A program made the position numbers and the translations under genes. This document shows positions 21,113-32,811 of a stretch of DNA of 64,000 nucleotides, piece after piece. A model generated the notes under the pieces. That model was not told the origin of the DNA, did no database searches, and saw only the letters and a list, made by a program, of their open reading frames with translations. Location: NCBI GenBank assembly GCA_004214155.1, contig SGYQ01000001.1:124001-188000 (forward strand). Reading direction: 5' to 3'. The stretch's first letter is position 1. Each line of letters begins with the position of its first letter. The DNA is from Burkholderiaceae bacterium (lineage in GTDB: Bacteria; Pseudomonadota; Gammaproteobacteria; Burkholderiales; Burkholderiaceae_A).

Positions 21113-21135
21113 GAAATCAGTTGGTAAACTTATGT

Positions 21136-21228
21136 AGCGGGCTTATTGCATTACTTAAAATGTCAATCTGGTCAGGTCGGAAACGGAGCAGCCAAGGCAA
21201 TTGATGGTAAGTGTAAGTGTAGCCCGCA
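21136..21228 (+). ncRNA. ffs: small signal recognition particle RNA (4.5S)
   Basis: The conserved Ffh-binding hairpin reads GGTCAGGTC then GGAAACG then GAGCAGCCAAGG, matching the 4.5S consensus with a GAAA tetraloop in place of GGAA. The outer helix is formed by GCGGGCT (21137-21143) and AGCCCGC (21221-21227). The total of about 93 nt fits a bacterial small SRP RNA. The 3' end lies only 24 bp before the proposed dnaX start. Confidence 0.92.
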
Positions 21229-21237
21229 CAGTTAATC

Positions 21238-29902: not shown

Positions 29903-31825
29903 TTGAATAATACTGTATCAAAAGTAGCAATATGGATGGTAATCGCTTTAATTTTATTTTCTATATTTCGGCAATTCGACGGAACTAGGGGAATGAGTCG
30001 GGAGATTTCCTATTCGCAATTTATGGAAGAGGCAAGGCAGGGAGCCATTAAATCCGCTGTTGTAGATGGTAGAACGGTTAGAGCCATAACGACTGATGAC
30101 AGGCAACTTATGGTAAACGCTCCGCAAGATTTGTGGATGGTTTCCGATCTCATGAAATATGGGGTAATAGTATCGGCTAAGCCTGAGGAGCAGCCATCGT
30201 TGTTAATGAGTATTTTTGTTTCATGGTTCCCAATGCTACTTCTAATTGCGGTATGGATTTTCTTTATGAGGCAAATGCAGGGAGGTGGTCGAGGTGGTGC
30301 CTTTTCATTTGGAAAGTCAAAGGCTCGCATGATCGATGAGAATAACAATGTTATTACTTTTTCGGATGTTGCTGGTTGTGATGAAGCCAAGGAAGATGTT
30401 ACAGAATTGGTTGATTTTTTGCGAGATCCGACTAAATTTCAAAAGCTTGGAGGTAGAATACCTCGGGGGGTTCTGATGGTTGGATCCCCTGGTACAGGAA
30501 AGACACTGCTTGCTAAAGCAATTGCTGGCGAAGCGAAAGTACCTTTTTTCTCCATCTCAGGGTCGGATTTTGTTGAAATGTTTGTTGGTGTCGGGGCGGC
30601 TCGTGTACGGGATATGTTCGAGAACGCAAAGAAACACTCGCCTTGCATAATTTTTATTGACGAGATAGATGCGGTTGGCAGACAAAGAGGGGCAGGACTT
30701 GGTGGAGGAAATGATGAGCGTGAGCAAACCCTAAATCAGATGTTGGTTGAGATGGATGGATTTGAGACGAATCAAGGCATTATAGTGATAGCTGCCACGA
30801 ACAGGCCTGATGTGTTAGACCCAGCTCTGTTAAGACCAGGAAGGTTCGATCGACAAGTTGTTGTTCCGCTTCCTGACGTTCGAGGCAGGGAGCAAATTCT
30901 AAATGTTCACATGAGAAAGGTACCCATTGCATCTGATGTTAAAGCGGATATCTTAGCCAGGGGAACGCCCGGGATGTCAGGGGCAGACTTAGCCAATATC
31001 GTAAATGAGGCTGCTCTCTTCGCTGCGCGACGCAGCGGAAGAACGGTTGAAATGGATGATTTCGAGAAAGCAAAGGATAAAATCTTAATGGGTTCTGAGA
31101 GGAAATCCATAGTTATGCCTGAGGAAGAAAGGAAAAATACTGCTTATCACGAGTCTGGTCACGCCATAGTCGCAAAGATGCTCCCAAAAACCGATCCGGT
31201 ACACAAGGTTACTATCATTCCTAGGGGAAGGGCTCTTGGGGTTACCATGCAATTACCTGAGGGCGATAGGTATAGTATGGATAAGGAACGGATTTTGAAC
31301 ACTATTGCAGTGTTATTTGGGGGCAGGATTGCTGAAGAAATCTTTATGGACCAAATGACAACTGGGGCCTCAAACGATTTCGAGAGGGCTACCCAGCTTG
31401 CCCGCGATATGGTCACTAGATATGGAATGAGTGATGCTTTAGGGCCAATGGTATACGCGGAAAATGAAGGAGAGGTATTTCTTGGTAGAAGCATCACAAA
31501 AACGACTCACGTGTCTGAGTCGACGATGCAAAAGGTTGATTCTGAGATACGTAGGATTATCGACGAACAGTACACGGTAGCACGAGATATCATAGAAAAA
31601 AATTCAGAAAAGATGCATGCGATGGCGAAAGCCCTTTTAGAATGGGAAACTATCGATGCTGAACAGATTGATGATATCGCTAAAGGAAAGGAGCCAAAGC
31701 CGCCCAAAGATAGTCTTAAATCTGGCCCCGAAAATGATGGCGGTAACAGTTCTAATTCGGGAGGGGGCTCAAGCGCTAAAAGCGGTAACCAAACTCCACC
31801 GGATGCTGTTACAGCTGCCAACTGA
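29903..31825 (+). CDS. ftsH: ATP-dependent zinc metalloprotease FtsH
   Basis: This membrane AAA+ protease degrades damaged membrane proteins and regulators and is caged by HflKC encoded earlier in the window. Two membrane helices lie near 7-23 and 98-120. The AAA domain has the P-loop GSPGTGKT near 194 (usually GPPGTGKT), [15 protein letters not shown], and the second region of homology. The zinc site is HESGH near 416. The tail is Gly/Ser/Pro-rich. The start is TTG. 640 residues. Confidence 0.97.
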
Positions 31826-31860
31826 TACAAAACCTTTTTTTTTCCTGCTTTCTATTTACT

Positions 31861-31886
31861 GTGGGATGCTTGTACAAGCATCCCAC
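31861..31886. promoter_or_regulatory. perfect 26-bp palindrome between ftsH and folP
   Basis: GTGGGATGCTTG continues straight into its own reverse complement, giving a perfect palindrome with no spacer. A T9 run lies just before it and none after it, so it is not a standard forward terminator. It is either a dyad binding site or a strong RNA hairpin before folP. Confidence 0.65.
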
Positions 31887-31914
31887 GTTCTGGGTGACAC
31901 ACGGAGACACTTAG

Positions 31915-32811
31915 TTGACAGAAACCCATTCAGAGAACCATATTTTTACTTGCGGTAGGTTTGATCTTTCCCTAGAAGGTCCTTTGGTGATGGGGATTTT
32001 AAACGTGACCCCAGACTCTTTTTCTGACGGAGGAACTCTTGGTACCTGTGACCTTGCCGTAAAAAGGGCGGAAGGTATGATCTCTGATGGAGTCGATATA
32101 ATCGATCTTGGGGGGGAGAGTACTAGGCCTGGAGCTGAAAAAATTCCACTGGAGGAAGAGTGGAGACGAGTGGAAGAGGTTTTGGCAAAGATTTTGGAGT
32201 TGAAAATTCCTGTTTCCATAGATACTATGAAGCCCGAGATTATGATCAGGGCTGTAGAAATGGGGGTGGATTTAATAAATGACGTCTCTGGATTTAGGTC
32301 AAAAGAGGCTCTTGATTTTTTAAAAGCAATGAAAAAAAGTCGGATTGGCTTTTGTATAATGCACATGCAGGGGAATCCACAAAATATGCAGGACAGTCCT
32401 CGGTACGGTGATGTTGTTTCTGAAGTTGAATTTTTCTTGCAAAGAAAGGTGGAGGAATTTCGGAATTCCGGAATTTCAAAAGACAGGATTTTAATCGATC
32501 CAGGATTTGGTTTCGGAAAGACTTCGCAACATAATCTTTCGCTTTTAAAAGAAATCCCAAGGCTAAGTAAAGTTTGCCCTTTGCTAGTTGGGTTATCCAG
32601 AAAAAGAATAATCTCAGAACTTTGTAAACGTAATAGTAAACCAACCGATAGATTGGGAGGAAGCTTAGCAATGGCCCTTTGGAGTGCAATGCAGGGTGCA
32701 TCCGTAGTTAGAGTACATGACGTCAAGGAAACAAAAGAGATGATCACTGTCTATAAGGCTTTGGGCGGAGACAACATATTTTCTGGCGTGGACAATGAAA
32801 AACAAACTTGA
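31915..32811 (+). CDS. folP: dihydropteroate synthase
   Basis: FolP condenses p-aminobenzoate with dihydropterin pyrophosphate in folate synthesis. Motifs are MGILNVTPDSFSDGG near 23, LGGESTRPGA near 64, DVSGF near 123, DPGFGFGKT near 196 and VGLSRKR near 224. The start is TTG with GGAG eight bases upstream. It overlaps glmM by 17 bp. A 278-codon reverse ORF covers it fully and is a shadow. Confidence 0.96.
   Translation: MTETHSENHIFTCGRFDLSLEGPLVMGILNVTPDSFSDGGTLGTCDLAVKRAEGMISDGVDIIDLGGESTRPGAEKIPLEEEWRRVEEVLAKILELKIPVSIDTMKPEIMIRAVEMGVDLINDVSGFRSKEALDFLKAMKKSRIGFCIMHMQGNPQNMQDSPRYGDVVSEVEFFLQRKVEEFRNSGISKDRILIDPGFGFGKTSQHNLSLLKEIPRLSKVCPLLVGLSRKRIISELCKRNSKPTDRLGGSLAMALWSAMQGASVVRVHDVKETKEMITVYKALGGDNIFSGVDNEKQT

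Follow-up and report, generated by a model that had tools for sequence, protein, structure and literature searches.

Operons of E. coli provide documented cases of differential decay in which the upstream gene is protected by a 3' structure, and 3' hairpins are well established in proteobacteria as stabilizers of the gene upstream (PMC5927463). Template switching is known to both create and mend hairpins (PMC8794818). In Burkholderia pseudomallei, a single operon of folP and glmM is believed to follow ftsH (PMC5587915), a view that agrees with a boundary at the ftsH–folP spacer. In a scan of 99 such spacers, a strict intrinsic terminator, defined as a stem with at least five T in eight bases, was found in 46 of 70 named Betaproteobacteria and in 9 of 22 relatives at the family or order level, compared to 1 of 495 shuffled spacers and none of the seven from the genus investigated here. 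This genus belongs to a small-genome lineage of Betaproteobacteria, and the closest named relatives of the FtsH studied here are found in Burkholderiales LSUCC0115 and in a Betaproteobacteria MAG, at 85–86% identity.

The window, by which we refer to the entire analysed stretch of 64 kb, contains the genes carB, greA, rlmE, ftsH, folP and glmM in this order, all on the plus strand, with names taken from the translations and from the original prediction, and with ftsH and folP backed by sequence matches. A small SRP RNA (Rfam RF00169) is located on the same strand at positions 21135–21232. Between ftsH and folP resides the palindrome listed in Table 1, whose two halves of 13 bp meet without spacer, as had been claimed and as a direct reading of the positions confirms. 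It is preceded by the ftsH stop codon 35 bp upstream and followed by the folP start 28 bp downstream.

Table 1. Position of features surrounding the ftsH–folP spacer in window coordinates.
Feature	Position	Strand	Remark
ftsH, gene upstream of spacer	29903..31825	+	stop TGA 31823–31825
T-run, nine T, after ftsH stop and upstream of hairpin	31837..31845	+	sequence
Perfect 26-bp palindrome GTGGGATGCTTGTACAAGCATCCCAC	31861..31886	+	sequence
5' arm core GGGATGCT	31863..31870	+	same letters in G000, G002, G006
Variable centre TGTACA	31871..31876	+	TGTAAAC in G002, TGGACG in G006
3' arm core AGCATCCC	31877..31884	+	same letters in G000, G002, G006
Likely folP Shine-Dalgarno GGAGA	31903..31907	+	read from sequence; 16 nt 3' of hairpin
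folP (dihydropteroate synthase), gene downstream of spacer	31915..32811	+	TTG start at 31915
glmM, after folP	from 32795	+	

About 0.05 palindromes with halves of at least 13 bp would be expected by chance in the whole 1.75 Mb genome, an estimate derived from base composition, which gives a chance of 0.262 for pairing at each position. The second-longest spacer-free palindromes have halves of 8 bp in the window and of 9 bp in a 399-kb sample of this genome (38.5% GC), drawn as stretches for the statistics of palindromes and hairpins. The contrary case envisaged in the original prediction, namely an abundance of similar random palindromes and a lack of conservation, is thus at odds with both these values and the invariance of the arms in three genomes described below. 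The proposed search for further copies identified the palindrome as unique, with no second occurrence in the 1.75 Mb genome at up to three mismatches over its central 22 bp, and since its counterparts in two related genomes are equally present once each, a repeat family, an uptake sequence or a repeated mobile element can be ruled out. A plasmid search using the ftsH–folP spacer returned no match, and neither did a comparison of positions 31861–31886 with Rfam.

The constrained part of the element is revealed by comparison with seven other genomes of the genus, the genome under study being referred to as G000. In six of the seven, ftsH adjoins folP at the loci at hand, and in G007 there was no match to folP or to a true ftsH. 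The two nearest by FolP identity, G002 (86%) and G006 (88%), carry the element once per genome at the matching location, as GTGGGATGCT-TGTAAAC-AGCATCCCAC and GGGATGCT-TGGACG-AGCATCCC, respectively. Among the three genomes, 16 of 16 columns are invariant in the arms compared to 19 of 63 in the spacer outside of the hairpin (Fisher P = 2e-7), and the differences at four-fold degenerate sites amount to 27–34% in folP and 41–47% in ftsH. At a four-fold-site divergence of 0.27–0.47, the neutral chance of finding all 16 columns invariant would be about 4e-4 to 1e-6, as estimated after the fact for a star tree with the Jukes-Cantor model. The invariance in light of this divergence indicates that the arms are under constraint. 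Conversely, the centre measures 6, 7 and 6 bp in G000, G002 and G006 and is palindromic in G000 only, and since it differs in both relatives, the exact loop-free symmetry is, as judged from these alignments, a peculiarity of one genome rather than a shared trait. The outcome for conservation, which had been suggested as a check, is thus mixed, with arms that are retained in G002 and G006, a centre that has changed, and no comparable hairpin in the ftsH–folP spacer of the four farther members G003, G005, G004 and G001, from which it follows that the hairpin is not essential for the ftsH–folP gene order. By the same token, the claim that the exact symmetry reflects selection for a dimer-binding site or a cruciform is borne out in that the sequence is non-random, its arms are conserved and selection is likely, but it finds no support for the symmetry itself, whose centre is not conserved. 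Matches to a loose pattern in distant genomes concern other sequences that are apparently not located beside folP and were treated as chance.

As RNA, positions 31861–31886 are predicted to fold into a stem of 11 bp with a GUAC loop at -17.6 kcal/mol. A hairpin of at least eight pairs is common to G000, G002 and G006, with predicted energies in the range of -13.7 to -17.6 kcal/mol despite the changes in the loop. In G006, the T-A pair beside the centre is replaced by T-G, which pairs only as RNA, and an additional outer stem, GTGCG/CGCAC, lengthens the hairpin (L003:2389–2465, minus strand). The tolerance of the loop, the T-A to T-G change and the outer stem of G006 all hint at an action as RNA. 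Compensatory base pairs are absent among the three arm sequences, and because the arms vary nowhere, these sequences cannot distinguish selection on RNA from selection on DNA. T-rich stretches are also found in G002 and G006 at the place matching the T-run upstream of the hairpin. We considered and rejected the idea that this T-run sequesters the Shine-Dalgarno sequence of folP, as the predicted pairing is strong in G002 only and involves other partners in G000 and G006.

With its 11 pairs and its predicted energy of -17.6 kcal/mol, the stem resembles that of an intrinsic terminator, for which a GC-rich stem of at least six pairs is expected. A T run directly after the stem is absent, with at most three T in eight bases on either strand, and the strict scan found none in G002 and G006 either. 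The earlier remark that no T run is found downstream thus applies to both strands, the run of nine T being located upstream, and the doubt about a normal terminator was justified, since a canonical U-tract terminator can be ruled out in either direction. In a survey of the 399 kb that relied on crude ORF calling, we identified eight hairpins in intergenic regions with energies of -12.6 kcal/mol or lower, most of which carry a T-tract on one strand or the other, the exceptions being the ftsH–folP hairpin and an AT-rich one at C2:3084. The former is the only hairpin in this set that is placed between co-directional genes without a T-run, and the other two at such locations end in T7 tails. The AT-rich hairpin (L129:3084–3119) contains a perfect stem of 14 bp and no T-run and is located between convergent ORFs. 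Since the other strong hairpins mostly come with T-tracts, this organism appears to employ termination at U-tracts, which is missing at the ftsH–folP boundary. The hairpin probably derives from, or replaces, an old ftsH terminator; what suggests that it descended from the terminator seen in other Betaproteobacteria is its position alone, as the stem sequences are unlike.

The element is thus real, locally conserved and of a known type. In the interpretation we favour, to which we assign a probability of about 0.6, it would act as an intercistronic RNA hairpin that serves as a U-less barrier at the 3' end, or as a weak attenuator, and keeps the level of ftsH mRNA above that of folP-glmM. The palindrome would in this case be the DNA of a strong hairpin in a co-directional ftsH-folP-glmM transcript, at the spot that the intrinsic ftsH terminator occupies in most Betaproteobacteria, and, without a U-tract, it should allow most polymerases to read through into folP and glmM. 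Such read-through is probably required for folP, as the gap of 28 bp separating it from the hairpin is too short for a full promoter. Upon cleavage of the mRNA in its folP part, the hairpin would stop 3'-to-5' exonucleases and might add slight pausing or termination, with an excess of ftsH mRNA over folP-glmM as the predicted net effect. Selection on the stem would preserve the arms, and the final step to a perfect palindrome in G000 might have been a local change of the loop that arose by chance or through an event such as template switching, with two point changes in the loop as an alternative route. The features of a stabilizing hairpin are found in a strong structure between co-directional genes, whose stem is kept in the two closest species.

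The main rival to a stabilizing hairpin is a genuine ftsH terminator that is either U-poor (I-shaped) or assisted by Rho, in which case folP-glmM would be expressed through leakage or from an ftsH-internal promoter. Although the strong stem, its location at the canonical terminator site of most Betaproteobacteria and the classification of U-less hairpins as I-shaped terminators (PMC7406221) would agree with this mechanism, we regard it as unlikely, since the prevalence of T-tracts at the other strong intergenic hairpins suggests that the U-less type is not in general use, no good promoter-like site is found from the hairpin to folP, and the genes directly downstream, folP and glmM, are usually essential. 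A promoter just upstream, which would place the hairpin at the 5' end of an mRNA, was also considered and rejected, as a TATAAT-like -10 box, which in G002 is located immediately 5' of the hairpin (L004:1420–1445), is not kept in G000 and G006.

An operator, at which a dimeric protein would bind the DNA and regulate folP-glmM or ftsH, is possible with nothing specific in its favour, and we consider it improbable. The perfect dyad and the letter-identical arms in three species are compatible with such an operator, but its spacing and symmetry would not be constant, as the centre expands from 6 to 7 bp and is asymmetric in the relatives; moreover, there is one copy per genome, no regulator gene is found in the immediate stretch of ORFs from carB to glmM, and no conserved promoter adjoins the palindrome. 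Slightly less probable still is the absence of any present function, where the hairpin would be a decayed terminator or a product of template switching on its way to loss. This would fit the absence of a hairpin in four of the seven genus members whose spacer was available, the missing U-tract and the ability of template switching to make or perfect hairpins without selection (PMC8794818), but it does not account for fully invariant arms in a spacer where only 30% of the surrounding positions are invariant, since repeated template switching could mend the pairing but would not keep the letters. We assign the lowest probability to a clade-specific element, either the target of a dedicated protein or a structured RNA switch, that would replace the ftsH terminator and set the ratio of FtsH protease to FolP and GlmM.

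Collectively, our analysis defines a boundary of the ftsH-folP-glmM cluster, which is itself widely conserved. Betaproteobacteria commonly carry a canonical terminator at this boundary, whereas the small-genome lineage either has a U-less hairpin there or lacks any such element. Our comparison also illustrates that a perfect palindrome in a single genome need not signify a protein-binding dyad and that it is the relatives which show the constrained part. With the ftsH–folP intrinsic terminator of Betaproteobacteria, the hairpin shares the spacer, a strong stem and a loop of few bases, whereas it lacks a U-tract after the stem and is unrelated in stem sequence. REP-type repeats are similarly intergenic palindromes that can fold as RNA, in contrast to which the hairpin described here is present in a single copy and is not part of a repeat family. 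As in I-shaped terminators of the WebGeSTer classification (cited in PMC7406221), a U-less hairpin follows a gene, although in our case it is located inside an apparent operon of a genome that otherwise uses U-tracts. With intercistronic mRNA-stabilizing hairpins, as found in the puf operon and in operons of E. coli (PMC5927463), the element has in common that it is strong, placed between co-directional genes and devoid of a U-tract.
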